DNA from: a virus
Virus record (IMG/VR): IMGVR_UViG_3300020462_000047
Span: 1-24,439 of that record
Direction: 5' to 3' (one strand)
Length of the DNA: 24,439 bases
Shown here one piece after another: positions 2,905 through 22,294 of the stretch. Within the stretch, counting starts at the first letter, position 1. Every line of letters begins with the position of its first letter. A program made the position numbers and the translations under genes. The notes beneath the pieces were generated by a model. The model was not told the origin of the DNA, did not search any database, and saw only the letters and a list, made by a program, of their open reading frames with translations.

Positions 2905-4479
2905 ATGAAAATTGAATCAATTTGTATAGTCGGTGGCGGTACCGCAGGATGGATGACCGCTGCTACTCTGATTAAATCATTTCCAAAAAAGAAGATAACT
3001 CTGATTGAGTCTGAGAATATACCTACTATTGGTGTGGGTGAGTCTACGACTCAATTTTTTCGTGACTGGACACTGGAGATGAATCTGCCAGATAACTGGA
3101 TGGATGAGTGTGAGGCAACATATAAGTACAGTGTTTTATTCAAGAACTTTAGTGAGTATGGTGACTTCCATTATCCTTTCAATGATGGTCAGGCTCCAAA
3201 AAATAGTAGTTGTGATATCCTAGAATGGTTCTTCCATTATAGAGCAACCAATGGTAATCCTGATGTGTCTTTCGCTGAATGGATGACACCATACTGGAGA
3301 ATTATTAAAGAGAATAAAGTTGTAATAGATGACTTTGAATCATTCAAATCATATAAGAACGCAGGTTATCATCTAGACGCAGTTAAGTTTTCTAACTATC
3401 TGAAGAGAGAGTTCTGTATACCACGTGGTGTAGAACACATAACAGATGACATCAAAGATTGTATCAAAGATACTGACGGTAATATAGCAAGTATTGTAGG
3501 AGACAAAGACATATATCTTGCTGACATGTACGTTGACTGTACTGGATTTAAGTCTGCCATCCTAGGTGGTATGATGGGTGTAGAGTGGGATGACTTCCCC
3601 TTCCTTATCAATAACAAAGCATGGGCTGTAAAGACAGGCTATACTGATAAGTCTAAAGAGATGACAGTATATACACAGTGTACAGCGTTGGATAATGGTT
3701 GGGTATGGCATGCTCCACTTACAACTAGAATAGGTACAGGATATAATTTCTGTGACAAGTTTATATCAGAAGAAGATGCCTTAAAAGAATTTAAAGAATA
3801 CTTAGGAGACAGACCTCTGCTATCTGAACCACGTTTAATTGAGTGGAGAAATGGTGTAGCTAAGAAGATCTGGACTAAGAACGTTGTAGGTGTAGGTCTG
3901 TCAGCAGGTTTCATTGAACCATTAGAATCTAATGGACTACTGTCTGTACATAACTTTGCTGTGTTCTTAGCAGACGCTTTGTCTATGCATGATGGTAAGG
4001 TCAATACTCTTATCAGAGCACAGTTCAATAGAAGGTGTCGTAAGCATATGAGTCAGTTTGCTCACTTCGTTGGTAATCATTTCATGATGACAACAAAAGA
4101 TAACAGTGAGTATTGGAGACACATATCTGAGAACATCAACTATATGGATGATCAGGCAGAGGATGAGAGAGGTACACATGGTGGATACCCACTAGATGAT
4201 TTCCCATTGAAGATGGATGAGTTACCTCAGTTTAATTTCAGTAACCTAGCAGGAAATTCTTATGTCTGTGCGGGACATATGCATTCTCCTACTACACCAT
4301 GGACTATAGATTATATGGAAAAGAGAGGAAACATTGACATGACCTCATTCAGAGTGCTATCATCAGGATATCAACTAGATCCTAATATACATGCGATGAT
4401 AGATCAGTTCCCTACACCTGAGCAGTTCTATTATGATGACGTAGCAGGAGTAGACTTTCATTATACATTACACGGATGA
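2905..4479 (+). CDS. Flavin-dependent tryptophan-halogenase-family protein 1
   Basis: A 524-residue protein, the usual length for this family. The FAD-binding GxGxxG equivalent is GGGTAGWM at 10-17, followed by IGVGEST (42-48). The Lys thought to guide hypohalous acid or form the haloamine in PrnA-type enzymes (K79 in PrnA) corresponds to K74 in ATYKYSVLF. The partner acid and serine lie in IEPLESNGL (E341, S342). The halogenase signature WxWxIP appears as WVWHAP at 266-271, so one position departs from consensus. Family enzymes use FADH2, oxygen and halide to halogenate electron-rich aromatics; the cyanophage member VirX1 from phage Syn10 has been reported to iodinate small molecules. No flavin reductase is seen here, so a host or distant enzyme must supply FADH2. 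The substrate is unknown. The stop overlaps the next start (ATGA). Confidence 0.88.
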   Translation: MKIESICIVGGGTAGWMTAATLIKSFPKKKITLIESENIPTIGVGESTTQFFRDWTLEMNLPDNWMDECEATYKYSVLFKNFSEYGDFHYPFNDGQAPKNSSCDILEWFFHYRATNGNPDVSFAEWMTPYWRIIKENKVVIDDFESFKSYKNAGYHLDAVKFSNYLKREFCIPRGVEHITDDIKDCIKDTDGNIASIVGDKDIYLADMYVDCTGFKSAILGGMMGVEWDDFPFLINNKAWAVKTGYTDKSKEMTVYTQCTALDNGWVWHAPLTTRIGTGYNFCDKFISEEDALKEFKEYLGDRPLLSEPRLIEWRNGVAKKIWTKNVVGVGLSAGFIEPLESNGLLSVHNFAVFLADALSMHDGKVNTLIRAQFNRRCRKHMSQFAHFVGNHFMMTTKDNSEYWRHISENINYMDDQAEDERGTHGGYPLDDFPLKMDELPQFNFSNLAGNSYVCAGHMHSPTTPWTIDYMEKRGNIDMTSFRVLSSGYQLDPNIHAMIDQFPTPEQFYYDDVAGVDFHYTLHG

Positions 4480-6008
4480 AGATTTGTATTGTAGGCGGTG
4501 GTTCATCAGGATGGATGACTGCTGCTGCCTTTGCTAAAAGGTTTCCACATTATGACATACAAGTTATAGAAGATCCTGACACTAAGCCTCTTAGTGTAGG
4601 TGAGTCAACACTTGGACATTTCAATCGGTACTTAGACTGTATAGATGTCAAAGACACTGACTGGATGAAGGATTGTAATGCGACATATAAACTATCCATA
4701 CAATTTTCTAACTGGAAAAATGGCGATAGTACTGATGTATTCCAATACCCCTTTGGGGAGATGGATTACACTAACGGTGACTTCCTAACATGGTACTATC
4801 TACATCACACGTGGCCACAGTTATTTCCTGATCAGACATATTGTGAGTTCTATAATCCTATCAGTTACCTAGCAAGTACTAATAAGATAGTAGATGACAA
4901 TACTCATGTTCGTAATTTTAGAAGGCACTGGGATACATCATATCACTTTGATGCTACATTATTTGGTGGGTGGTTGAGAGATAATATATGTAAGACTGTA
5001 GTTAATACAAAAGCAAAAATTATAAATGCGTTATACGATGATCAGTGTAATATAAAATCCCTCGTTGACGCTGAAGGTATACATCACAACGCAGATTATT
5101 TCATAGATTGTACTGGTTTTAGTTCAGTCCTATTAGAGCAAAAGATGGGACAAGAGTTTATCCAGTTTCCTAATCTACCAAATGATTCTGCTGTAGTAGC
5201 ACACGTACCATATAAAGACAAGAACAAAGAGATGAAGAACCAGACAGATGGTTACGCTCTTGATAATGGATGGTGTTGGACTATACCTCTATGGAATAGT
5301 CTAGGAAAGGGATATGTATATTCTAGTGAGTTTGCTTTACCAGGTATAGCAGAGGCAGAGTTTAGAAAGCATACAGGATATGCTCATGAAGTGGAGCATA
5401 TAAAATTTAAACATGGTAGGAGGAGATTAGGGTGGTCTCAAAATGTTATAGGTATAGGTCTATCATATGGTTTCTTAGAACCATTAGAATCTACTGGTCT
5501 GTTTACTACACATGAGAACATACTCAGGTTAGTAGATACCTTTGAACGTAGAGACGGACATGTCACACAGATAGATGTAGATGGATATAATCATGCTGTA
5601 CACTATGAACTAGAAGCTATGAAAGAGTTTGTAGAGATGCATTACTACCTCTCTCCTAGAATAGACACACCATACTGGAGACACTATAGCAATGGATCAC
5701 CTCTCTCACATGAGCAGATGTTTGATAAGGTAGTGAGATCCCCTAGACTATATCAAGAGTTTATACACTGTTGGAATATATCTAACGCACCCAAAGATCT
5801 AGGTGGTTTACCATACATCGCAGCAGGTTTAGGATATCATCCATTGACAAAAACAGATTACAACTATAAGGTTAATAGGAGAGAGTGTGATGTGTCTTAC
5901 TTAAATGAACTTAAGAACAGACATTTCCATTATAGAAAATCCGTGCTAAAATACTTAGAGAAGCAACCTACTCACTATGAGTATTTGAAGAAATACATTT
6001 ATGTTTAG
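4476..6008 (+). CDS. Flavin-dependent tryptophan-halogenase-family protein 2
   Basis: A 510-residue paralogue of the preceding protein. It has VGGGSSGWMTA at 6-16 (dinucleotide binding), VGEST at 41-45, catalytic Lys K72 in ATYKLSIQF, a canonical WCWTIP at 266-271, and LEPLESTGL with E338 and S339. All halogenase hallmarks are intact, making it the more conventional of the pair. The two proteins match throughout their N-terminal two thirds but differ clearly in their C-terminal regions (residues ~390 on), where substrate or partner selectivity often lies. The gene overlaps its upstream neighbour by four bases and its downstream neighbour by eight, so translational coupling is likely. It may halogenate a second site or act with the first as a heteromeric pair; neither idea can be tested from sequence. 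Confidence 0.9.
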   Translation: MKICIVGGGSSGWMTAAAFAKRFPHYDIQVIEDPDTKPLSVGESTLGHFNRYLDCIDVKDTDWMKDCNATYKLSIQFSNWKNGDSTDVFQYPFGEMDYTNGDFLTWYYLHHTWPQLFPDQTYCEFYNPISYLASTNKIVDDNTHVRNFRRHWDTSYHFDATLFGGWLRDNICKTVVNTKAKIINALYDDQCNIKSLVDAEGIHHNADYFIDCTGFSSVLLEQKMGQEFIQFPNLPNDSAVVAHVPYKDKNKEMKNQTDGYALDNGWCWTIPLWNSLGKGYVYSSEFALPGIAEAEFRKHTGYAHEVEHIKFKHGRRRLGWSQNVIGIGLSYGFLEPLESTGLFTTHENILRLVDTFERRDGHVTQIDVDGYNHAVHYELEAMKEFVEMHYYLSPRIDTPYWRHYSNGSPLSHEQMFDKVVRSPRLYQEFIHCWNISNAPKDLGGLPYIAAGLGYHPLTKTDYNYKVNRRECDVSYLNELKNRHFHYRKSVLKYLEKQPTHYEYLKKYIYV

Positions 6009-6798
6009 AAAGAAGAAACCAAAAGCAAGGTTCTTTAGTTTACACCCTGCTGTACATACATTACATCCTATTACCAAGGCAGCAGATCTTGATAGAAAGT
6101 GGGTGAAAGATGAGAGAGGAGACTATAGAGAGAGATTGAATAAGTGTCCTATCTCTCAAGCATTACAAGGTGTACAAAACTTCCCTAATTCTATAGGTCG
6201 CTGTCCAGCTATAAATTCTCTTATGAGGACAGGTTATATTGTATACGCTCCCGCTGACTTTAAAGTTCACACTAATGGAGATGGACATACAATACTGTTC
6301 ACAACAACTCCTTTCAATCCTCCATCATCAGACTACGTTGTATTACATGAAACTGATGTAACTAAATGGTTGATGGATTCTAGTAAGGATACAACAATAG
6401 ATCAGGTAGTAAAAGTCAATACTACTTGGCGTGTACAGGCAGATGATGATGTCGTATTTCTCCAAACAAAAGTACCTTTCGTTAATGAAACTCGCTTCTC
6501 AGCAGTATCTGGTGTTCTCGATCCACGTACTGCTTATGAAGTCAATGTCCAACTCTTCTGGCACTTGATGGAAGGTGACACAACAGTTAGAGCAGGAACA
6601 CCTCTCTGCTGTTATGTTCCTATATCACGTAGTCTATTAGAAAATCTTGACATGTCTATTGACGTAGCTACACCTACAGATTATAAGCTTGAAGAAGAGT
6701 TTATATTTACTGCGTACAATGAGTTCCCTGAGAATGTCAATACAACTCAGAGACAAATTAAAACTAATAAAATTTTGAAGAAGTATTGGAATGGATGA
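6001..6798 (+). CDS. Unidentified protein of the halogenase/oxygenase block, possibly DUF6065-like
   Basis: A 265-residue protein starting with a basic stretch (MFRKKKPKARFF) and then LHPAVHTLHPITKAADLDR. Around 66-87, GRCPAINSLMRTGYIVYAPA is followed by Asp-Phe. At 157-210, KVPFVNETRFSAVSG, a ...VNVQLFWH segment and GTPLCCYVPISR form an all-beta pattern. The layout (tryptophan or arginine near the start, a CP...G...DF segment, a late G-P-hydrophobic-P-x-x-R element) recalls DUF6065-type proteins, a family of unknown function that I recognise only loosely. No catalytic motif or membrane segment is evident. Overlaps of eight bases with both neighbours tie it to the cassette; it might be an accessory or substrate-presenting subunit, which is inference. 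Confidence 0.65.
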   Translation: MFRKKKPKARFFSLHPAVHTLHPITKAADLDRKWVKDERGDYRERLNKCPISQALQGVQNFPNSIGRCPAINSLMRTGYIVYAPADFKVHTNGDGHTILFTTTPFNPPSSDYVVLHETDVTKWLMDSSKDTTIDQVVKVNTTWRVQADDDVVFLQTKVPFVNETRFSAVSGVLDPRTAYEVNVQLFWHLMEGDTTVRAGTPLCCYVPISRSLLENLDMSIDVATPTDYKLEEEFIFTAYNEFPENVNTTQRQIKTNKILKKYWNG

Positions 6799-7399
6799 AT
6801 CAATACCTTTATTTTCTGTACCCATAGTTAAGGGCAGAATAGTACCAAATGAATATGATGATGCTGCTACTGATACTATGTTAAGCCGCATCTTTCTTGA
6901 TAGAAAGCTAGGTGAGTTTGAAGGTGAGTCAGGTCTATCTACAGGTCCTGATGAGATGAAGATACATGAAAAAGAAGAACTTAAATGGTTGATGAAACCA
7001 TTAGACTTTGCTGTCAAAGAATATTGGGTATACACTCTAGGCTATAAGAAGATGGCAGATATCAAATGTAGAGATGGGTGGGCAAACAAACACTTCGCAG
7101 GAGATACTACAGTAGAACATAGTCATCAAGATGGATGGTGGGGTAGTTGTCAAATATCATGTGTATATTATTTTAGAAAACCAAAAGGATCTAGCAATAT
7201 AAAATTCTGTAACCCTAATGATTACATCCTACGTAATCAACCATACGCTATGATGAAAGGAATACATACTATAGCAACTGACTTTCCAGCTGAGCAATTC
7301 GAGTATGTTATCTTCCCATCATGGGTAAGACATAGAGTTGACCCTAGTACTGTAGGACCTCGTATAGCTATGTCATTTAATTTCCAAGGTTATGATTGA
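6791..7399 (+). CDS. Putative 2OG-Fe(II) oxygenase 1 (PF13759-like)
   Basis: A 202-residue single-domain double-stranded beta-helix protein. The metal site is in VEHSHQDGWWGS (H110, H112, D114), the distal His is H181 in FPSWVRHRV, and the 2OG-anchoring Arg is R191 in RIAMSFNFQG. The FPSW-H-V and R-x-[SA]-x-[SM]-FN pattern is typical of the 'putative 2OG-Fe(II) oxygenase' family common in marine T4-like phages. The H-x-H-x-D arrangement gives a conventional HxD pair if H112 and D114 are the ligands. It is first in a run of six such genes, overlaps the preceding gene by eight bases and the next by four (ATGA). Hydroxylation of a protein or small molecule is the expected chemistry; the substrate is unknown. 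Confidence 0.8.
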   Translation: MDESIPLFSVPIVKGRIVPNEYDDAATDTMLSRIFLDRKLGEFEGESGLSTGPDEMKIHEKEELKWLMKPLDFAVKEYWVYTLGYKKMADIKCRDGWANKHFAGDTTVEHSHQDGWWGSCQISCVYYFRKPKGSSNIKFCNPNDYILRNQPYAMMKGIHTIATDFPAEQFEYVIFPSWVRHRVDPSTVGPRIAMSFNFQGYD

Positions 7400-8205
7400 T
7401 GTATATACTTCCAATATCTAAAAGAGTATACCAAGAGACAAAACCTATCTTCAAACCAGTAAGTGAATGGAACTTTACCTATCACAGTAAGTACTGGGTA
7501 GTCAGAGATATCTTCAAAGAGGGTGGTCTAGATTTAATCAAAAAGATTGCTAGTTCATATCCTATTGTTGATACAAATAATCACGATGAAGATTTTGATC
7601 ACAACCCTTTTATGGTACATCATTTACCATACTGGATTACACAACCTCTATGTGAGGCAGTCAGGGAATTTGTACTTAAACAACACTTCGGTCAAGGACC
7701 TGAGTTAGAATTAATAGACGAACGTTTATCAGAGTGGGGTAATGTGTATTACAAAAATGAGTGTCGTCCTCTAGTAAACTCATATATACCACACGTAGAT
7801 TTCCCTAATGATGAGGGATGGATAGGAAACTTATGGTTATCAGAACATGAAAAAGGACAAACAACAACAGACATCTATGAGTATAAAGGAGAGGTGTCTG
7901 AAGGACGGTACGATTTCCAACTTGATCCACGTCACCAACGGTATAAAGAGTGGCACGATTGGGTTGGAGACGGAAAAAATCATACAGACGGCTTTCAAAA
8001 TCTCACAGGAAACCAAGCCTTTCACTGGGGATTCAGAAAAATAGCATCAGCTCCTGTAGAGTATGGAACTATGACTATCTACAATGCTAACTTACCCCAT
8101 TGCCCTTTCATAGATGATAGTGTACAATGGAGATGGTCTCACTGTTTCGGATTCAAATACAAATCCTTAGCAAGAGTATTTAAAGCACAAGAAGTTCCTG
8201 TTTAA
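7396..8205 (+). CDS. Putative 2OG-Fe(II) oxygenase 2 (HxD...H type)
   Basis: A 269-residue protein with a late beta-helix core. The HxD pair is H133 and D135 in SYIPHVDFPNDEGWIGNLW, the distal His is probably H235 in YNANLPHCPF, and R246 in VQWRWSHCFGF is placed to bind 2-oxoglutarate. The region between the two halves (150-215) is unusually long and rich in charged and aromatic residues (YDFQLDPRHQRYKEWHDWVG), possibly a lid or substrate-recognition insert. It could relate to DUF6445-type proteins that accompany tryptophan halogenases in bacteria, but this is a tentative family call. The gene begins ATGATG with a four-base overlap upstream and shares one base with the next gene (TAATG). Confidence 0.7.
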   Translation: MMYILPISKRVYQETKPIFKPVSEWNFTYHSKYWVVRDIFKEGGLDLIKKIASSYPIVDTNNHDEDFDHNPFMVHHLPYWITQPLCEAVREFVLKQHFGQGPELELIDERLSEWGNVYYKNECRPLVNSYIPHVDFPNDEGWIGNLWLSEHEKGQTTTDIYEYKGEVSEGRYDFQLDPRHQRYKEWHDWVGDGKNHTDGFQNLTGNQAFHWGFRKIASAPVEYGTMTIYNANLPHCPFIDDSVQWRWSHCFGFKYKSLARVFKAQEVPV

Positions 8206-8765
8206 TGTTTCTAGATGAAATATTTCCTACACCCATATGGGGTTTTGATTTAGATCTTGACGTGTCCAGTATTGAATATTGGATGTACCAAGAGATGAAG
8301 AAAGACGAGGGAAGAACTATATCTAATATTGGTGGGTGGCAATCAAATGACTATAGGGAGTTTGGTGACACACCACTCACAAACCTTGTACTATTCATTG
8401 TCAAAGAGTCACACAACATAGCAAAGGATATCGGTATACCAAAAGGTGATCGTTGGGTCGAGAACCTATGGTTAAATATCAATCCTAAGTATTCGTATAA
8501 TCAAATACATCAGCACCCAGAGTCTAGACTCTCTGGTGTTTTCTATGTCTCTGCTCCTGAGAACTCAGGTAATATATGTTTTACAAGATCCAATGGTTAT
8601 GCTCTAGGAACAGTCTGCCCAGAGATGACTAGATATAGTGTGGCAGAATACTGTTATCCTCCTAAGAAAAACAGACTGCTAATATTTCCTGCTTGGCTTG
8701 AGCACCATGTGAAGGCGAATCTATCTGAAGAAGATAGAGTATCAATATCATTTAACATACGATGA
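8205..8765 (+). CDS. Putative 2OG-Fe(II) oxygenase 3 (PF13759-like)
   Basis: A 186-residue protein opening with MFLDEIFPTPIW, the typical N-terminal beta-strand of this phage oxygenase family (a 'FPTPI' motif). WVENLWLNINP leads into YNQIHQHPESRLSGVFYV, with H102, H104 and E106 at the metal site. FPAWLEHHV supplies the distal His (H167), and R178 in RVSISFNIR is the 2OG Arg. This is the best match in the window to the family consensus HxHP...SGvyY...FPsWLxHxV...R-x-SisFN. Such genes recur in cyanophage structural regions without a proven role. Start and stop overlap the neighbours by one and four bases. Confidence 0.85.
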   Translation: MFLDEIFPTPIWGFDLDLDVSSIEYWMYQEMKKDEGRTISNIGGWQSNDYREFGDTPLTNLVLFIVKESHNIAKDIGIPKGDRWVENLWLNINPKYSYNQIHQHPESRLSGVFYVSAPENSGNICFTRSNGYALGTVCPEMTRYSVAEYCYPPKKNRLLIFPAWLEHHVKANLSEEDRVSISFNIR

Positions 8766-9382
8766 GAGAGTTTAAAAACTTTTTACCTAGCTCGTTAGCA
8801 AACGAGTTACATGATAAGATGACATCTAATGAGTTCCCTTGGTTCTGGTTAGATGATGTCACAGTATCACCTAAAGATAGATCAGAGGTTCCTGAGTTTT
8901 ACAGGAGTCAACCAGGTATGCATCATACTCCTTACAGAGATGGTACTATGAGTACATGGTATGGAGACTTCAGTTTCTTCTATCACTACATCATTGATAC
9001 TCTTGGTCTGCCTTATGATCAATGGTATCTGTCTCGACTTAGATGTGGATTAAACTTTCCTACATTTAGAGAAGAGCACTTCTTACACAACCAACCACAC
9101 GTTGACTTTCCAGAGTCATCAGGTGTAGACCACTTTACATGTTTATACTATGTCAATGAATCAGACGGTCCGACAGTCGTATTCGAGGAGAAAGAGGAAT
9201 CGGAGAAATATAATATCAAATATCAATGCAGTCCCGAAAAGAATAAGCTTTTCGTTTTTGATGGTAAGCACTATCATGCTAGCTCATGTCCTCAGCATCA
9301 TGACGCAAGGATCGCTATAACTATCAACATCGTCAACCGTCATCAACCAGCCAGTGTTAAGCCGTTTCTTCGCGTCGCGTGA
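8762..9382 (+). CDS. Putative 2OG-Fe(II) oxygenase 4 (HxD...H...R)
   Basis: A 206-residue protein. The facial triad is legible: H113 and D115 in NQPHVDFPESSGVDHF, then H172 in FDGKHYHASSCPQ, with R183 in ARIAITINIV as the likely 2OG-binding Arg. Residues 124-142 (HFTCLYYVNESDGPTVVF) form the strand pair usual between the ligands. The N-terminal 90 residues are mostly aromatic and charged and probably build the substrate pocket. The fold pattern is close to prolyl-hydroxylase-like phage enzymes. It overlaps the previous gene by four bases; the next gene starts inside its last 29 bases. Confidence 0.78.
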   Translation: MREFKNFLPSSLANELHDKMTSNEFPWFWLDDVTVSPKDRSEVPEFYRSQPGMHHTPYRDGTMSTWYGDFSFFYHYIIDTLGLPYDQWYLSRLRCGLNFPTFREEHFLHNQPHVDFPESSGVDHFTCLYYVNESDGPTVVFEEKEESEKYNIKYQCSPEKNKLFVFDGKHYHASSCPQHHDARIAITINIVNRHQPASVKPFLRVA

Positions 9383-10046
9383 TCTATACTGTGATGATGG
9401 TGTAGTATACATCCCACAGTTTATAGACAACCCACAAGAATACCTATCATGGAAAGACGTAGAGACATGTCTTACACGTGATGATATCTACTGGGAATTG
9501 ATAGACAAGAATGGACGTAAGAAAGAACTAGGAATGTACAAACCATACTGGTCTCCAGTTCCTTGTCAGGATAAGAACACAATATATGACCATGTAATAG
9601 GTGGAGAGAGTTTTGTTATTACAGGGTATAGTAAGATAAAAAGAAAGTTACAAGATCTGTGTATAGAGATAGAAAGATCTTTGGATGTCAATGTAGACAT
9701 ACATGTATATGGAGCAAGAGGTAAGTCACCTTCGTTTAAAACACATTGTGATCACTTCTCTAATTTTATAATACAGTGTGTTGGAGAGACACCGTGGAAA
9801 GTATATAAGAATAAACAGACCTCATTGTTGGCATGTAAAAATGACAAATCGCTAAACTATGATATAATGGAAACTGAATGGGAAGGGATTCTAAAGCCTG
9901 GTGATCTCCTCTATATACCTGATAGAGCATATCACTGTGCTATACCAAATAACACAAGGTTATCAATGAGTATTCCTTGTGCTCCTACTGTTCTAAACCC
10001 AGAGTTCTATGACAGACGTAACTACAAAATACAAACCGATAATTAA
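9354..10046 (+). CDS. JmjC/cupin-like putative Fe-2OG oxygenase 5
   Basis: A 230-residue protein starting at GTG; no in-frame ATG precedes the domain and the GTG leaves a natural N-terminus before VVYIPQFID. HCDHFSNFIIQCVGETPW gives H131 and D133 and matches the HxDxxxxFxxQxxGxxxW signature of JmjC/YcfD-like ribosomal oxygenases and Cupin_4/8 proteins. KPGDLLYIPDRAYHCAIP supplies the distal His H194 and is the standard second half of that motif; RLSMSIP follows. Family members mostly hydroxylate residues in folded proteins, which supports the idea that the cassette acts on a polypeptide. No Shine-Dalgarno-like sequence is visible, and the 29-base overlap suggests dependence on upstream translation. 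Confidence 0.78.
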   Translation: MLSRFFASRDLYCDDGVVYIPQFIDNPQEYLSWKDVETCLTRDDIYWELIDKNGRKKELGMYKPYWSPVPCQDKNTIYDHVIGGESFVITGYSKIKRKLQDLCIEIERSLDVNVDIHVYGARGKSPSFKTHCDHFSNFIIQCVGETPWKVYKNKQTSLLACKNDKSLNYDIMETEWEGILKPGDLLYIPDRAYHCAIPNNTRLSMSIPCAPTVLNPEFYDRRNYKIQTDN

Positions 10047-10626
10047 GGTCTGGAAGGAAGCAGTTCCTATTCCAGTCGTTGATCATCTGTATGCTGAGTT
10101 TCGTTTGATGAGAGACGCTCTGTTGGCTATGGGTAGTAATGAAGGGTACAATGATCCTACTACACCTGATTGTTTCTCTTGGTATTCACCTCTATGTTTT
10201 GAGGCAATGAGTATCAAATTAAAACCAGAAGTAGAAAGGATTCTCAAGGCAGAGGTTCAATCTACCTACTCCTATGGACGCATATATACTGAAGGAAGTG
10301 AACTTGAAAAGCACACTGACAGAAGGTCTTCAGAGATAGCAGTTAACCTGTCTATCGCTAGAGATATCAAATGGGATCTAAATTTTGAATGGATGGGACA
10401 AACCCTATCAGTTGACTTAGAACCAGGAGATGTGGTAATATACACAGGAACTATTCCGCATTGGAGAGAAAAGTATACAGGTAAAGAACATATCAATGCC
10501 TTTATGCAGTATGTTTATGCTGATGGTCAGTTCGCTGACATGAAGTATGACACACGTCCATACCTTGCCACCCCATTCACTCTCGCAAGGAGTGATGTTC
10601 AAGATGAAGTAAAAAATTATGTCTGA
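10009..10626 (+). CDS. Putative 2OG-Fe(II) oxygenase 6 (HxDR...H)
   Basis: A 205-residue protein with RIYTEGSELEKHTDRRSSEI giving H102 and D104 and the HTDR-x-x-SE signature seen in small phage and bacterial oxygenases. LEPGDVVIYTGTIPHWRE supplies the distal His H151, and GKEHINAFMQYVY holds the final strand, with Lys159 or the upstream Arg153 as possible 2OG anchors. The beta-helix core covers roughly residues 85-175. The ATG at 10009 lies 38 bases inside the preceding gene; no better in-frame start is evident, and this one leaves a complete N-terminal helix (VVDHLYAEFRLMRDALLAMG). It is the last oxygenase of the run. Confidence 0.75.
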   Translation: MTDVTTKYKPIIKVWKEAVPIPVVDHLYAEFRLMRDALLAMGSNEGYNDPTTPDCFSWYSPLCFEAMSIKLKPEVERILKAEVQSTYSYGRIYTEGSELEKHTDRRSSEIAVNLSIARDIKWDLNFEWMGQTLSVDLEPGDVVIYTGTIPHWREKYTGKEHINAFMQYVYADGQFADMKYDTRPYLATPFTLARSDVQDEVKNYV

Positions 10627-11103: not shown

Positions 11104-11391
11104 TTAATCTACAAACTTGAGGAACTTGCTTGATATCAAGTCATGCTTCTCATCAAACTCTAAACGTCTACGGGCATGGGTCTTATCTCCATCAACAATG
11201 AGATAATATCTTTTACCGTAGATGTTTTTTGTCATGCCTATAGCAACGATAGGTCTATCGTCATACTTATCACCAACATCATAGGGGATAGTCTCTGCGG
11301 TACCATTGTAAGGAGTAAGAGTTTTACTCCAAAGGTGTTCTCTGAGTCTATATTCACCTGTTGGTGCTTCTCTGTCTCTAAGTCCAGCCAT
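11104..11391 (-). CDS. Opposite-strand small protein, function unknown
   Basis: The only convincing minus-strand gene in the window, 95 residues. The composition looks like a real folded protein: YDVGDKYDDRPIVAIGMTKN, then YGKRYYLIVDGD followed by THARRRLEFDEKHD. The overlapping plus-strand frame at 11176-11418 gives a Cys/Ser/Ile-rich translation with no plausible domain. The gene converges on the cassette with no gap and diverges from the large protease gene with 43 bases between starts. No Shine-Dalgarno or minus-strand promoter could be assigned. If real, it would be transcribed against the late genes, possibly early in infection. Confidence 0.55.
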   Translation of the reverse strand: MAGLRDREAPTGEYRLREHLWSKTLTPYNGTAETIPYDVGDKYDDRPIVAIGMTKNIYGKRYYLIVDGDKTHARRRLEFDEKHDLISSKFLKFVD

Positions 11392-11434: not shown

Positions 11435-14400
11435 ATGGCAACCCTTTTAGTAAAGGTAGCAGATTCTATGACTCTTGATGGTGCTCAAGCACTAATACAG
11501 GGTCAGCATAGTTATTTAGAGTTTGTTCGATCTTTCCCTTCATTTAAAACTATCCAGTTTACAGCACCTTCAGAGGATCAATCCTCTATTGATGAGATAA
11601 GATCTTTAGCTTATGTTCTAGGTGCTACTTACGACAAACCATTCGAGATAGACCCTGTGGTAGGAGGTCTTGTAGAGACTGCTGAGTTCAGCACTGATAT
11701 AATAGAGAGTAATACAAACGAAGAAGAAGCAACAGGTACAAGGAATACAAGAATAATAACTTCAAGTGGTGGTGGAACAATATATGTTAAGGTAGCAAAC
11801 TATGGTGGTAATTTAAGATTTGAGTTAGGATCATCTCAAGGTGGTGTGTACAGTCGTATCGCAACCTATAGTGGTTTCGTACAGGGTGGTACATATACCT
11901 TCGACCAGAGTGATACATCTAACACAGGTCATAGAATAGCATTTTCTTTGACACCTGATGGTACACATGGTGGTGGTGTTCAATACACATACAAGGTAAC
12001 AACCGCAGGTACACCTGGTTCATCAGGTGCTTACACCCGTATTGAAGTAGATAGTGTTACAGCATCTGTACTGTACTGGTACAACGTGTCTAACTCTAAC
12101 TACGGTGCTTATGATGATAGTCCTTTACGTTATGGTGCCATTTGTATACATGACTTCTGGCATCTAGATCGTATATCAAAACAAAGTAGGAGTTTTTTAA
12201 ATGGAGTCTATAACACTACGGAAGAAGCTGACGGTGTTGACATATATGTACTTGATACTGGAATTAGAGGAGCTTCGAGACCGACTGGAACGAACGTAGG
12301 ATTACATCCAGAACTATTCGATACAAGTAATAACGCTGACCTTAATGGTTTATCAGAGCAGCAGTCATACCGTGTGTATGAAGTAGCAGGTTATAGTTCA
12401 GGATATACTGTCAATGGTGTGGCAAATAGTAATGAAGATGATAACGGACACGGTACATACTGTGCTGTATTGTCAGGTGGTATCAAGTGTGGTGTCACAA
12501 ACCAATCCAAGTTCTATGCTTTGAAGTGCTTTAGTTCTTTTGGTAGTGGATCTCTGTCAGGTATCATGAATGCTTACCAAGCAGTCATCAACCATAATGA
12601 CAGTGGACACGTCAACTACAAGGGTAACACTAGACCAGCAGTGATCAACTCATCCTTCGGTGCTACACAACCTAGTGGCTCTGTACCATACGTTGAGATA
12701 AACGAGGCAGGTACTGACTCAGGATTTGATATAGAACTCTATGACGAGACAGAGAAAGACGTAGTAGATGCTAATATTGTACTTGTTAGATCAGCAGGTA
12801 ACGGATTTAAAGATGCTAGTGATAGTTTCTTAGGACCTCTACAAGGTAGATTCCAAGCAGGAACTAGATCAGCAGGTTATCCAGACGGAGATGTCAACAC
12901 AGTTGATACAAATATCGCGTCTATCTCTGTAGGTGCTACAGACTATAATGACAGATGGGCAGACTTCTCTAACTATGGTTCAGGTGTAACAGTTACAGCA
13001 CCAGGTCAACACATAACAGTACCAAACTATAACTGGACTACTAATACTCCTTATACATCAGTATCAAACTACACTAACATAGGTGGTACATCGTTCTCAG
13101 GTCCTATCACAGCAGGTGTAGTTGCTCAGTTCATAGCAGCTAACAGTTATACACATAGTACAGGTACACTACCAGTATTATGTAAGAACTGGATTAGAGG
13201 GACAGGAGATGCTGGTAACTTCGCAGCTGTCAGTACAACTGCATATCCTACTAACACAGCTCATGAATATAAGTTACCCACTGACCCATTCGCAGTCAGC
13301 AGTGGTAGCAATGTCATCAAGATATACTATAACGCAATAGATTCTAGTGCCTTCCTGAACAAGATTGGTAAGAAGTTACAGTTCAGAGTCGCAGCTAGCT
13401 CACTATCAGTGGGTGGTATTAACATTAAAGAAGAGTCTGGTACATGGTATGGCATCACAGGACAGGATGCTGCTAATAACTATGTTGAAATCACTGTAGT
13501 TAACAGTGGTACAGGTAATGAAGTAGGTGGTGGAGATAATAACTATGGGTGTATTATATCTGATACACATGAAGGAACTGACGGACCTTCATTCGGTAAC
13601 GTCACATTATATGCTGAGTTAGACTCAGAGGAAGCAGGACATACAGGTCGTACTATCCAACAGATACCAGTAGATACAGGTGTTGACTTTGATTACAGTC
13701 AAACAACATCCTTAATTAGTAAGGTCAGAGGACTGTTCACTAGATACATCTCTAAGACTATCACATGGTTCTACAATGGATCTATTAGTCAGACAGGTGG
13801 TATTGGAACTACTAACGGAAGAGTCTACTGGGATACAGAAGGAGTCACAGCTGCTTCATACTATCTTCAGTGTGAGTATCATACTAACATGTATGGAACT
13901 CTTCAGTTATCTGGTTCAGGTGGTACTGCCAAGAGATATTGGACAGTTACAGCACCTGGCAATGGTGCTTATAGATTTACAGAACAGGGCGTAACTCCTG
14001 TAGTCAACACATATAACATAGCCGTCACTGCTAGTGGCAGTTCAAACTATACACTATCGGGAACAGATAGAAGTGGTAGTGTTAGTGGTAGTGACCCAAC
14101 AGTTACAGTACAGGTTGGAGATACAATAAGATTCAATATGAATGCGGGTGGACACCCAATGTTTATCAAGACTGTTGGTGGAACTGGTACAGGAAATCAA
14201 GTCACAGAAGGAACTACATCAGGTCAAGGTACACAGAGTGGTGGCACTATAGAGTGGGTCACAGATGGAGTAACACCTGGTACTTACTACTACAACTGCC
14301 AGTATCACGGTGGTATGGAAGGTCAGATAGTTGTACAGGCAAATAATACAGCAGGTCAAAGTGGTGATGATATTACTATCACAGGAACTGTAGGTGATAT

Positions 14401-17296
14401 ATTCGTATTTGATGTTAACGCAGGTGGTCACCCATTTAGACTTAAGACTGTAGCAGGAACTAATGATGCTACTACAAATGAAGTTACTACAGGTTACATC
14501 GGTGGTGATGGATTCGATCACAACAGTTCTCAGAGCATAGACATAGGTGTAGATGAGTTCAAGAGTTTTGCTAATGAAACGTTTAACGCAGGTGAGACAT
14601 ATACTCTGTCAGGTGATGATATATCAGGTACAGGACTGACATTCAATACAACGAGTGGTGTTCTATCTGGTACAGTCACATCATCCTATCAGGATACATT
14701 CTATAACATCACAGTTACAGAGGATAGTTCTACAGAGGCAAGAAATTATAACTTCCATACTGTTGGTACAGGTGTTATCATCACGATTGGTGATCAACCA
14801 TCTGATGTAACGATAGAAGCTGGAGCAGGAACCAACGCACAGTTCGGTCCTATTAACGCAAGTATATCTGACAGTAGTACTATCAACTACCAGTGGCAGT
14901 ATAGTACAGGTGGTGCGTGGACAAGCATTAGTAGTCTAGGAGGACATAGTGGAGAGACATCAGATACACTTACTGTAGACGATCAGTACGCATTTAATGG
15001 ATGGCAGTACAGATGTGTATGTAGTGCTAACTCAGCTGGATCAGATACAACTACCAACGCTGCTACATTAACAGTAAACAGAGTTATCACAATATCAGGT
15101 CAACCAACACCACAATCAGCTGTCGCACCAGCTGCTGCTACATTTACTATCACTGCTGCTACTGCTGATACAGCTACACTAGGATATGCTTGGGATAAAT
15201 CAGAAGACAATACCGTATGGCACCAGATTGCGGGAGCAACTTCTTCATCATATGTAACTACTGCTACCACATATGATAGTGGTGGTACACCTCCAGCTTC
15301 CTTCAATGCTGACAATGGAGACTACTTTAGATGTAGAGTCAGTGTTGTTGGTGGTAATGAAGTAACATCTAGCAGTGTTCAGTTAACAGTTACAAGAACT
15401 CTATCAGTAGATACTCACCCACAAAATACTACAGGATCTGTTGGTGGCACTAGAGATTTCTCAGTTGTTGCTAGTATATCTGATGGAGATAGTTCTGACA
15501 TCAATTACCTATGGCAGGTATCATTGAATGATGGAGCAGACTGGTCAAGTATTGGTGGAGCAACAAGTGCGTCATATACAACCCCAACATTATCAAATCA
15601 ATATGATGAGTATCAGTATCGTTGTTTAATATCAGCAGCTGGTGCTTCAAACATATTCTCTAACGCTGCTACCTTACAGGTAGAAACAGTTACTGTATCT
15701 GTTGTTGGTAATCCCGCTGATAGAACTATAGATGAGGGACAGTCAACAGGATTTACAGCAGTAGGTTCAGTACAGAACCAAGAAATTACTTCCCTACTTA
15801 ACTCTTCCTTTGGAGTTGGTAACTGGGTAACACCTTCAGCTGGTGGAAACAGTGCGACAGAACAAACCGCTGCTGATCCAGAGCTATACAACTCAATATA
15901 TTCTGACCACGCACCTTCAGTCACATATCAGTGGGAGAGATCTGATAACGGTGGAGTTGATTGGAATGATGTACCTGGTGCTACAAGTCCTACTTACAAC
16001 ACAGGCACAGTAACATATGCTGACGACAACGGTGACAGATACCGTTGTAAACTATCTGCGATAGGTGCTACATCTGACGCAACGACTGACGCTGCTCTCT
16101 TGACTGTATACAGAACACATCAAGTATCTGTACAGCCAGTTAACGCAACAGGTAATGAGGGAGGCACATCTTCTTATACAGCAGGTGGTACAACATCCAG
16201 TGGTACACATACATTCCAGTGGAGTAAATCTGACAATGGCGTAGACTACAATACTATACCAGGTGCTACTAATGCTACCTACACCACTCCAGCTCTAGTG
16301 TTTGCTGATGATAATGATGACAGATTCAAGTGTACATTATCTCTAGTAGGTGCGGAAACAACTTTAGACACAACCTATGCTGTACAGACAGTTCTTAGAG
16401 TTCTTTCTATCTCTCAACAACCACAGGCACAGACAATTATTGAAGGACAGACAGCAACATATAGTATCACTGCTTCTATTACCAGTGGATCTATAAACTA
16501 TCAGTGGCAGAGATCACAAGACAGTGGTGGTAACTGGTCTACTCTTGTTGGTGCTACAGCAGCATCATATACTACACCTGCGATGCCATTCCCAACGGTA
16601 AACAATCAGTATCGTTGTGTATTGTCTAACTCTAATGCTATATCAATCACATCAGACGCTGCTAACTTAACTGTTAATGAATCTGAGTTTGTAGAAGCAG
16701 CTGCTTCCATGAATGTCAATGTAGACCCAACAACTAACTTGACATTCAATAGACAACCTACGTTTACTTCTGGAGCATTTGTTTCACAGTACGCAGGATC
16801 AGCACACGCAGCATCATACTGGTTAATTAAGAGAACAGCAGATAACGTGACTGTATATGATACTGCTACTATCACAGTTCCTGATCTATCAGGTGGTGAT
16901 ACTGGTAACTTGACTACATTCACAGTACCAGCTGGTACACTTGACTTCCAAGTAACTTATTCAGTTCAAGTCAGGTTTAAAGATAACGCAGGTTTATTGA
17001 GTAACTATTCAACTCCTGTAACCTTCTCTACTCCTGTAGTAGATCAACCAGAAATACAAACTATTACACCCGCATTCAATCCTACAATCAATGTTCTCAC
17101 TCCAGAGATCAAGACTGGATACGGACATAACTCTACTGACTGGCAGTTCTCAGCAGCAGAGACATTCACTGACATTGAACATCAATCGTTAGGAAACTCA
17201 ACTAACTTACAGTCTTATACGTTACCAGGTGACGTTACACTGTTACCTACAACTACATATTATGTAAGGGTGAGATTTAACGTGGATACAATCTAA
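11435..17296 (+). CDS. Giant virion protein with subtilisin (S8), cupredoxin-like and Ig-like domains
   Basis: A 1953-residue protein. Residues 1-90 form a small unassigned domain. Residues ~265-600 are a subtilisin-type domain with the complete triad: D274 in YVLDTGIRG, H339 in DNGHGTYCAV and S553 in GGTSFSGP, plus oxyanion Asn N456 in RSAGNGF. Residues ~870-968 are cupredoxin-like with H907 (AGGHPMFIKT) and C955-x2-H958-x2-M961 in YYNCQYHGGMEGQIVV. Half-copies lie on either side. Residues ~1114-1748 hold six Ig-like units, each with a YQW-type Trp and a YRC-type Cys strand. The tail (1750-1953) looks fibronectin-like. There is no signal peptide. It lies directly before gp13 (TAATG overlap) behind a consensus late promoter, so it is probably a virion protein. 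The protease may mature virion proteins or degrade cell-surface protein. Copper binding is inferred from ligands. Confidence 0.85.
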   Translation: MATLLVKVADSMTLDGAQALIQGQHSYLEFVRSFPSFKTIQFTAPSEDQSSIDEIRSLAYVLGATYDKPFEIDPVVGGLVETAEFSTDIIESNTNEEEATGTRNTRIITSSGGGTIYVKVANYGGNLRFELGSSQGGVYSRIATYSGFVQGGTYTFDQSDTSNTGHRIAFSLTPDGTHGGGVQYTYKVTTAGTPGSSGAYTRIEVDSVTASVLYWYNVSNSNYGAYDDSPLRYGAICIHDFWHLDRISKQSRSFLNGVYNTTEEADGVDIYVLDTGIRGASRPTGTNVGLHPELFDTSNNADLNGLSEQQSYRVYEVAGYSSGYTVNGVANSNEDDNGHGTYCAVLSGGIKCGVTNQSKFYALKCFSSFGSGSLSGIMNAYQAVINHNDSGHVNYKGNTRPAVINSSFGATQPSGSVPYVEINEAGTDSGFDIELYDETEKDVVDANIVLVRSAGNGFKDASDSFLGPLQGRFQAGTRSAGYPDGDVNTVDTNIASISVGATDYNDRWADFSNYGSGVTVTAPGQHITVPNYNWTTNTPYTSVSNYTNIGGTSFSGPITAGVVAQFIAANSYTHSTGTLPVLCKNWIRGTGDAGNFAAVSTTAYPTNTAHEYKLPTDPFAVSSGSNVIKIYYNAIDSSAFLNKIGKKLQFRVAASSLSVGGINIKEESGTWYGITGQDAANNYVEITVVNSGTGNEVGGGDNNYGCIISDTHEGTDGPSFGNVTLYAELDSEEAGHTGRTIQQIPVDTGVDFDYSQTTSLISKVRGLFTRYISKTITWFYNGSISQTGGIGTTNGRVYWDTEGVTAASYYLQCEYHTNMYGTLQLSGSGGTAKRYWTVTAPGNGAYRFTEQGVTPVVNTYNIAVTASGSSNYTLSGTDRSGSVSGSDPTVTVQVGDTIRFNMNAGGHPMFIKTVGGTGTGNQVTEGTTSGQGTQSGGTIEWVTDGVTPGTYYYNCQYHGGMEGQIVVQANNTAGQSGDDITITGTVGDIFVFDVNAGGHPFRLKTVAGTNDATTNEVTTGYIGGDGFDHNSSQSIDIGVDEFKSFANETFNAGETYTLSGDDISGTGLTFNTTSGVLSGTVTSSYQDTFYNITVTEDSSTEARNYNFHTVGTGVIITIGDQPSDVTIEAGAGTNAQFGPINASISDSSTINYQWQYSTGGAWTSISSLGGHSGETSDTLTVDDQYAFNGWQYRCVCSANSAGSDTTTNAATLTVNRVITISGQPTPQSAVAPAAATFTITAATADTATLGYAWDKSEDNTVWHQIAGATSSSYVTTATTYDSGGTPPASFNADNGDYFRCRVSVVGGNEVTSSSVQLTVTRTLSVDTHPQNTTGSVGGTRDFSVVASISDGDSSDINYLWQVSLNDGADWSSIGGATSASYTTPTLSNQYDEYQYRCLISAAGASNIFSNAATLQVETVTVSVVGNPADRTIDEGQSTGFTAVGSVQNQEITSLLNSSFGVGNWVTPSAGGNSATEQTAADPELYNSIYSDHAPSVTYQWERSDNGGVDWNDVPGATSPTYNTGTVTYADDNGDRYRCKLSAIGATSDATTDAALLTVYRTHQVSVQPVNATGNEGGTSSYTAGGTTSSGTHTFQWSKSDNGVDYNTIPGATNATYTTPALVFADDNDDRFKCTLSLVGAETTLDTTYAVQTVLRVLSISQQPQAQTIIEGQTATYSITASITSGSINYQWQRSQDSGGNWSTLVGATAASYTTPAMPFPTVNNQYRCVLSNSNAISITSDAANLTVNESEFVEAAASMNVNVDPTTNLTFNRQPTFTSGAFVSQYAGSAHAASYWLIKRTADNVTVYDTATITVPDLSGGDTGNLTTFTVPAGTLDFQVTYSVQVRFKDNAGLLSNYSTPVTFSTPVVDQPEIQTITPAFNPTINVLTPEIKTGYGHNSTDWQFSAAETFTDIEHQSLGNSTNLQSYTLPGDVTLLPTTTYYVRVRFNVDTI
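13757..14509 (+). repeat. One complete and two half cupredoxin-like repeats inside the giant protein
   Basis: At the protein level, the copper-loop half (VTAASYYLQCEYHTNMYGTL, with C813, H816, M819) precedes the full domain, whose matching half is VTPGTYYYNCQYHGGMEGQI. The first-ligand half (VGDTIRFNMNAGGHPMFIKT) recurs downstream as VGDIFVFDVNAGGHPFRLKT with H999. Neither half-copy has the complementary ligands. The arrangement looks like partial duplication or unequal recombination around one intact module. Confidence 0.65.
14774..16678 (+). repeat. Tandem Ig-like domain repeats (six units)
   Basis: Six consecutive ~95-140-residue units in the giant protein share a start like ITIGDQPSDVTIEAG, a core Trp in YQWQYS/YQWERS/FQWSKS, a GATSxxYTTP turn and a YRC/FRC/FKC strand ending in a TLTV-like segment. 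The first and last cores are at residues ~1151 and ~1689. Unit 4 carries an extra ~45 residues (~1449-1493) before its core Trp. Such domains in phage structural proteins often provide weak carbohydrate or surface binding. Confidence 0.75.
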
Positions 17297-21628: not shown

Positions 21629-21780
21629 TGCAGTTTCGTGAAGATGACATACTAGATTTACTTGATGTATGTCGCACAACAGATAAATGTAGTGCTAAAC
21701 TTGTACACAAGTTAGAAAACTACCTTGAACAATACTCTTGTAATGACTCTACCAACCGTGTGGCACGACACCATACCTGA
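21628..21780 (+). CDS. Short ORF of 50 residues overlapping the next gene
   Basis: The ATG at 21628 overlaps the previous stop (TAATG), and the frame runs to TGA at 21778-21780. The product is small and helical (MQFREDDILDLLDVCRTTDK, then LVHKLENYLEQYSCND). The last 38 bases overlap the following oxygenase gene. It fills what would otherwise be a 114-base gap in a region with no other gaps, and the TAATG coupling is the same device used by its neighbours. Its function is unknown; a non-coding leader is the alternative. Confidence 0.5.
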   Translation: MQFREDDILDLLDVCRTTDKCSAKLVHKLENYLEQYSCNDSTNRVARHHT

Positions 21781-22294
21781 AGAAATCTTTAGCAAGTTGA
21801 AAGATGCTTGTATAGAGAGACGCAAAGATAATGAATGGGACTATAATGATAAGTTAGTTGGTGCTCTCAACTCCTCATCATTAGAACCAACGGAGGGATT
21901 GGAGAATTATCTCATTAATATCTCCGCAAATATCTGGACACACTTCTTCCAGACATCCCCATGGGATCAGAACTTTAATCCAGAGTACCTAGATCTCCGC
22001 AACCTATGGGTAAACTATCAACAGAAAGGTCAATATAATCCTTATCACTGCCATCATGGTGTGGTAAGTTTTGTTATTTTTGTAGATATACCTTACGGAA
22101 ATGAGGAGAGAGCACATCATGGTAGTGATGGTGGGTTCCAATTAGAGCAACATCTATTCAGAATAGATAGGAAATGGAACGGAACAGTCCTAATGTTTCC
22201 CGCAAGCACCAACCATGCTGTGTATCCATACTACTCCACAGATAAGGAGAGGATTACAGTCGCAGGAAATCTGTTCTGGAACGCTGCTAAATAA
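21743..22294 (+). CDS. Putative 2OG-Fe(II) oxygenase 7, with a Gly at the possible acid-ligand site
   Basis: 183 residues from the ATG at 21743; an upstream in-frame TTG (21725) is less likely. The layout matches the PF13759-like family: YLDLRNLWVNYQQKGQYNP leads into YHCHHGVVSFVIFVDIP, then WNGTVLMFPASTNHAV with the distal His H158, and R170 in ERITVAGNLFW. The metal region reads H102-C-H104-H-G106, whereas the two similar proteins in the upstream block have D and E at the equivalent of 106. If H104 and position 106 were the ligand pair, this protein would lack the acid. If H102 and H104 are the ligands, it would be normal. It lies apart from the six-gene block, among small late genes. Confidence 0.75.
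   Translation: MTLPTVWHDTIPEEIFSKLKDACIERRKDNEWDYNDKLVGALNSSSLEPTEGLENYLINISANIWTHFFQTSPWDQNFNPEYLDLRNLWVNYQQKGQYNPYHCHHGVVSFVIFVDIPYGNEERAHHGSDGGFQLEQHLFRIDRKWNGTVLMFPASTNHAVYPYYSTDKERITVAGNLFWNAAK
22286..22293 (+). promoter_or_regulatory. Putative late promoter box GCTAAATA
   Basis: GCTAAATA overlaps the stop of the oxygenase gene and is 19 bases before the ATG at 22313. It deviates from TATAAATA in the first two positions, like the box at 2346. Its position at a gene end just before a start repeats the arrangement seen at 20819 and 22528. Confidence 0.45.

Follow-up and report, generated by a model that had tools for sequence, protein, structure and literature searches.

Cupredoxin modules with a conserved type-1 copper ligand set in a predicted subtilase of marine T4-like phages

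A T4-like phage fragment (IMG/VR record IMGVR_UViG_3300020462_000047; 24,439 nucleotides, all of it analyzed and here called the window) encodes a 1953-aa protein in which a predicted subtilase and a chain of Ig-like units are combined with cupredoxin modules. Alignments give good support to a complete type-1 copper ligand set kept under purifying selection in these modules. The explanation that we modestly favor is a large virion-associated subtilase at the pre-gp13 locus, into which mobile cupredoxin modules have been inserted as copper-stabilized surface units. Subtilases, cupredoxins, and Ig repeats are each already known. A literature search, with most subscription papers and preprints outside its coverage, returned no description of cupredoxin modules in phage virion proteins, the nearest copper match being a viral nirK auxiliary gene, which is a different thing. 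A prior inspection of the letters (the sequence-only reading) had called the combination unusual, which holds for the literature but not for cyanophages, where the domain is common.

Gene locus and catalytic domain

The features of the gene are as follows.

11435..17296, plus strand: whole gene, 1953-aa multidomain protein of the T4-GC_519 family (ATG start; phrog_27200 match)
11435..11719, plus strand: residues 1-95 at the N-terminus, a possible subtilase pro-domain (from position and a secondary structure of low confidence)
11765..12109, plus strand: decayed N-terminal cupredoxin-like module, residues ~111-225 (alignment of 19 relatives)
12155..13204, plus strand: predicted subtilase (S8, proteinase K-type) catalytic domain, residues ~241-590 (Pfam, profile, catalytic residues)
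12254-12256, plus strand: Asp274, catalytic triad
12449-12451, plus strand: His339, catalytic triad
12800-12802, plus strand: Asn456, oxyanion residue
13091-13093, plus strand: Ser553, catalytic triad
13784..13906, plus strand: C-terminal half of the split cupredoxin module, residues 784-824, with Cys813/His816/Met819 (ligand-masked HMM)
14006..14335, plus strand: complete cupredoxin module B, residues 858-967 (profile, fold, ligand-masked HMM)
14153-14155, plus strand: His907, module B ligand residue
14297-14299, plus strand: Cys955, module B ligand residue
14306-14308, plus strand: His958, module B ligand residue
14315-14317, plus strand: Met961, module B ligand residue
14345..14515, plus strand: N-terminal half of the split cupredoxin module, residues 971-1027, with His999 (ligand-masked HMM)
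14762..16669, plus strand: six Ig-like units, residues ~1110-1745 (six aligned W/C core pairs)

The reading frame is intact over its 1953 residues. A second IMG/VR contig (L006) encodes the same protein with 100% identity across 1953 residues, and 31 more relatives exist besides it, which together rule out a one-off fusion or an assembly artefact. The gene lies directly upstream of gp13 (neck) and is followed by three genes matching the gp13, gp14, and gp15 families and then by a small-terminase gene. In T4, the gene immediately before gp13 is wac (neck whisker), and the 1953-aa gene holds this wac-like position, a correspondence of gene order only; the PHROG and Pfam matches of the protein include no fibritin-type family.

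The same locus before gp13 is occupied by T4-GC_519 proteins in the Prochlorococcus phages P-HM1 (PHM1_104), P-HM2 (PHM2_106), and MED4-213 (CPMG_00018), which are 48-50% identical to the window protein over ~90% of the length and share its subtilase triad and four-ligand cupredoxin modules. These homologues carry one complete module at another post-protease site and an intact N-terminal module, whereas the window protein has its complete and split modules elsewhere and its N-terminal module is decayed. They are annotated only as hypothetical, P-HM1 and P-HM2 adding a PF07686 note.

Residues ~241-590 are, by profile, a peptidase S8 subtilase of the proteinase K type, a predicted protease. The isolated catalytic region matches PF00082 at 7e-21 with 75.2 bits, passing the cut-off of 21.8, while aqualysin and proteinase K come up at 1.2e-19 when the family profile is used. 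The triad and oxyanion residue named in the sequence-only reading are numbered correctly and sit in the expected contexts (VLD274TG, NGH339GT, AGN456G, and GTS553FSGP); all four are invariant across all relatives covering those positions. An AlphaFold2 model of residues 1-742, built from 19 sequences, has a mean pLDDT of 43 over the catalytic domain, so the subtilase assignment is carried by the sequence profiles. Residues 1-95, with no Pfam match, show a beta-alpha-beta-alpha-beta pattern in low-confidence secondary structure and, given also their position, may be a subtilase pro-domain. No signal peptide is visible by eye at the N-terminus (MATLLVKVADSMTLD) of the 1953-aa chain.

Cupredoxin modules and conservation of their ligands

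His907, Cys955, His958, and Met961 of module B are present as the sequence-only reading numbered them, in type-1 copper spacing (GGH907P and NC955QYH958GGM961). Module B matches PDB plastocyanins at E 0.003 in a single-sequence phmmer search, and a profile does so at 9e-5, bringing His, Cys, His, and Met into register with the known ligands. The stretch has a confident AlphaFold2 model. Over 98 residues it superposes, with Z 11.1 and rmsd 2.4, on domain 1 of a Cu nitrite reductase of the three-domain type; in Foldseek it reaches E 7.9e-5 with many cupredoxins among the matches, the VIA and Foldseek lists concerning mainly model residues 118-239. Judged from this model, module B has the cupredoxin beta-sandwich fold. 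Structure prediction, which the earlier reading had proposed for both domains, bore out the fold of module B but not the catalytic domain.

Module B shares its fold and ligand set with plastocyanin, with amicyanin, and with the plastocyanin-like domain found in three-domain Cu nitrite reductase. Its C-x2-H-x2-M spacing is that of amicyanin, a short loop unlike the plastocyanin type. Those proteins are free or enzyme-linked electron carriers, while the window module lies within a large phage protein that has no signal peptide. Module B falls below the curated cut-offs of PF00127 (17.4 versus 21.2) and TIGR02656 (19.1 versus 87.85 bits); together with its location inside a 1953-aa chain, this rejects a free-standing plastocyanin or petE-type auxiliary gene.

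The sequence-only reading counted one cupredoxin set, which is module B, and overlooked two further modules. The halves of the first flank module B, with Cys813/His816/Met819 upstream and His999 downstream, and cover complementary parts of the ligand-masked HMM: residues 784-824 correspond to positions 66-107 (E 6e-5) and residues 971-1027 to positions 23-75 (E 3e-9). Both halves have a high-confidence AlphaFold2 prediction, and both ligand sets are intact in 24/24 window-type sequences (near-duplicates counted). Cyanophage S-CAM1 (L046) has a natural permuted copy in the same order with no module between the halves. The two halves are probably one circularly permuted cupredoxin, the permuted fold being read from the HMM coordinates, and by sequence the window protein thus holds two complete His-Cys-His-Met sets, in module B and in the split module. 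The second overlooked module is N-terminal (pLDDT ~47-92 by block) and has kept its His but lost Cys, His, and Met (YWYNVSNSNYG), as have 14 of 19 relatives, the window protein among them; the other 5 keep all four ligands.

Is the ligand set more than a chance motif? For the census, all frames of the fetched loci were searched with a profile in which the ligand columns were masked, which avoids circularity. In the first set, the full His-Cys-His-Met set is present in 54/54 complete modules that span the site. These modules fall into 26 clusters of <65% identity and have a mean pairwise identity of 0.38. Only six columns of the module alignment are invariant (H907, P908, Y953, C955, H958, and M961), four of them the ligands. 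In the extended set, the four ligands are complete in 134/136 viral modules, a count that is partly non-independent for Cys and the first His since some of these loci were found by a pattern containing one of them. The exceptions are the S-CAM1 permuted copy, whose Cys/His/Met lie upstream, and a degenerate module. The ligands of module B are invariant across every relative holding it. This census rules out a chance motif, and the ligand conservation argues strongly that a metal site, most likely a type-1 copper site, is under selection. Judging from the ligand residues, the modules may be loaded with copper.

The strongest competing explanation, in our view unlikely, is that the fold is solely a beta-sandwich spacer, with any bound metal incidental or absent, a structural-only use that the sequence-only reading had also offered. 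It suits the N-terminal module, which is retained in the 14 relatives that have lost its ligands, as well as three relatives (L024-L026) that keep the subtilase but have no intact copper-site module, and Ig-like spacers are frequent in phage virions. It does not suit the other modules, which keep all four ligands while little else is invariant. Moreover, Cys, His, and Met disappear together where a site decays, and the axial Met has no obvious reason for retention if metal is absent. Since L024-L026 have an intact protease and no intact site, copper would be an accessory that is dispensable for the core function.

Spread and mobility of the module

Many cyanophage proteins carry the module, at several independent insertion points; their annotations include gp9 tail-fibre connector, tail fibre, and other subtilase. 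The collection was scanned with a tighter module profile, since one drawn from 13 diverse modules varied too much; searching predicted viral proteins by structure returned the same protein set. The subtilase serine motif occurs in 56/80 viral frames with the module, a share raised by a query set that favored such proteins.

Within one backbone, the module sits after the catalytic domain at two sites, whereas in S-BM3 and L037 it is inserted inside the catalytic domain, and in L036 a second module encloses a complete one. This L036 gene (2852-12034) encodes a large phage subtilase that has YHYH domains (PF14240) in addition to the cupredoxin within a cupredoxin. The module also stands at the end of annotated gp9 connectors and of a second type of cyanophage subtilase, and within annotated tail fibres. 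The subtilisin-like serine proteases of S-H9-1, ACG-2014e/i/j, and S-MbCM7 combine subtilase and cupredoxin module in a single chain, as in the window, but are ~690 aa long with a C-terminal module and no Ig chain. That of S-MbCM7 (S-MbCM7_177; L041:6421-9345) has, by eye, an extra alpha/beta-hydrolase-like stretch in the same chain. The gp9 proteins (baseplate wedge tail-fibre connectors) of S-RIM8, S-SSM4, S-SSM5, ACG-2014b, and P-TIM68 carry the same His/Cys/His/Met module but, unlike the window protein, lack a protease; the S-SSM5 module stands at the end of a T4_gp9_10_N protein. In the module tree, which is poorly resolved, modules that occupy different insertion sites in one backbone fall in different parts, suggesting repeated acquisition.

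Beyond phages, large proteins of marine Flavobacteriia (L144, L145, and L147-L149) carry the module C-terminally, 50-59% identical and with the same ligands. These proteins differ from the window protein in being cellular and in showing no protease. Several have a lipoprotein-like N-terminus, which together with the C-terminal module fits extracellular, surface use. A close relative of the window protein is also encoded by a contig of a 'Euryarchaeota archaeon' bin (L143; PBPH01000083.1), probably a phage contig binned with an archaeon.

Particle location and candidate roles

The six Ig-like units claimed in the sequence-only reading are borne out by six Trp/Cys core pairs (1154/1194, 1253/1300, 1360/1397, 1500/1538, 1596/1633, and 1691/1728). 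The Ig-like region matches phrog_613, phrog_25852, and phrog_3995, which are head/tail structural proteins. The module itself occurs in S-SCSM1_231, annotated 'virion protein', and a module of the N-terminal type occurs in an S-TIM5 protein annotated as virion structural. For S-SCSM1, the published virion proteome comprises 45 identified proteins (PMC9602691). These matches and annotations suggest that the 1953-aa protein is probably particle-borne.

According to the explanation that we favor, the protein belongs to T4-like phages of the Prochlorococcus/Synechococcus type, and its backbone would be a proteinase K-type protease followed by the Ig-like chain, with mobile plastocyanin-fold modules inserted. 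As no signal peptide is visible, the protein would be built apo in the reducing cytoplasm, and the modules would take up copper after lysis. It would be located on the neck or tail with the Ig-like chain and the copper modules facing outside, and the subtilase would trim particle proteins or host-surface proteins. Copper strongly stabilizes cupredoxins, so the simplest role for the copper-bound beta-sandwiches would be that of rigid, protease-resistant surface modules serving stability and/or adhesion; we rank host attachment as the next most likely role.

In its narrower form, host attachment would mean that copper-loaded modules help the phage to recognize its host, much as in the 'Trojan horse' idea for iron on tails but with copper. 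Iron in the tail fibres of T4 and alterophages has been proposed to engage siderophore receptors, and the iron-binding HxH fibres (T4 gp37 and alterophage R22Y) are likewise metal sites proposed on phage tails, although theirs are octahedral Fe-His sites in trimers and the window protein has a cupredoxin fold (PMC11705849). The concentration of the module in annotated gp9 connectors and tail fibres, which are host-contacting parts, agrees with such a role. No receptor or copper-uptake partner is known for the module, however; the modules are internal, their insertion points vary, and the gene of the 1953-aa protein lies at the neck locus, and we give this account a lower probability than the spacer.

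A somewhat smaller chance falls to an infection-stage protease that acts in the cell or is released at lysis and is no part of the virion. The virion proteome of 2010 is that of S-SM1, and the matches listed include no S-SM1 homologue of the window protein. Against this stand the place of the gene in a structural operon, between tail-fibre-like genes and gp13-gp14-gp15, the virion-type Ig repeats, and the sharing of modules with annotated virion proteins. Least probable is the redox-active center of the sequence-only reading, with the sites serving electron transfer or oxidant quenching on the particle: the ligands match those of blue copper electron-transfer proteins, but the protein encodes no redox partner, second type of copper center, or haem, the module accompanies unrelated domains, and nothing ties it to the neighboring halogenases and oxygenases.

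A broader proposal, which we hold to be possible rather than probable, is that functional type-1 copper sites on the neck, baseplate, and tail-fibre proteins are a widespread and repeatedly acquired feature of marine T4-like phages, permuted and nested cupredoxins included, and that copper from seawater or the lysed host alters particle stability, attachment, or redox. If copper is bound, some of the most abundant ocean phages would be copper-bearing particles, a copper counterpart of the iron-on-tails idea with a bearing on attachment, particle stability, and seawater trace-metal cycling. The hypothesis is directly testable with the cultured phages P-HM1, P-HM2, S-SSM5, and S-RIM8. In many cyanophages, a so far unexplained stretch of the annotated gp9 and tail-fibre proteins gains a probable identity, and cupredoxins that are split or nested are of themselves structurally unusual.

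Upstream in the window, the halogenase/oxygenase block noted in the sequence-only reading is real. Two tryptophan halogenases lie side by side at 2905-6008, both strong PF04820 matches, and a series of 2OG-Fe(II) oxygenase and JmjC-like genes occupies 6791-10046 and 21725-22294; the block genes at 6001-6798, 7396-8205, 8762-9382, and 10009-10626 have no Pfam match. A functional tie between block and protein is unsupported, since P-HM1, P-HM2, and MED4-213, the best-studied relatives, have no annotated halogenase within the ~6 kb upstream flank. Three neighboring glycine-rich paralogues of ~250 aa each lie at 79-2350, the first matching tail-fibre families, and a 95-aa gene on the minus strand (11104-11391), just upstream of the protease gene, matches phrog_26228 (function unknown). 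In phage DSL-LC01, a halogenase follows a gene with YHYH and cupredoxin domains.
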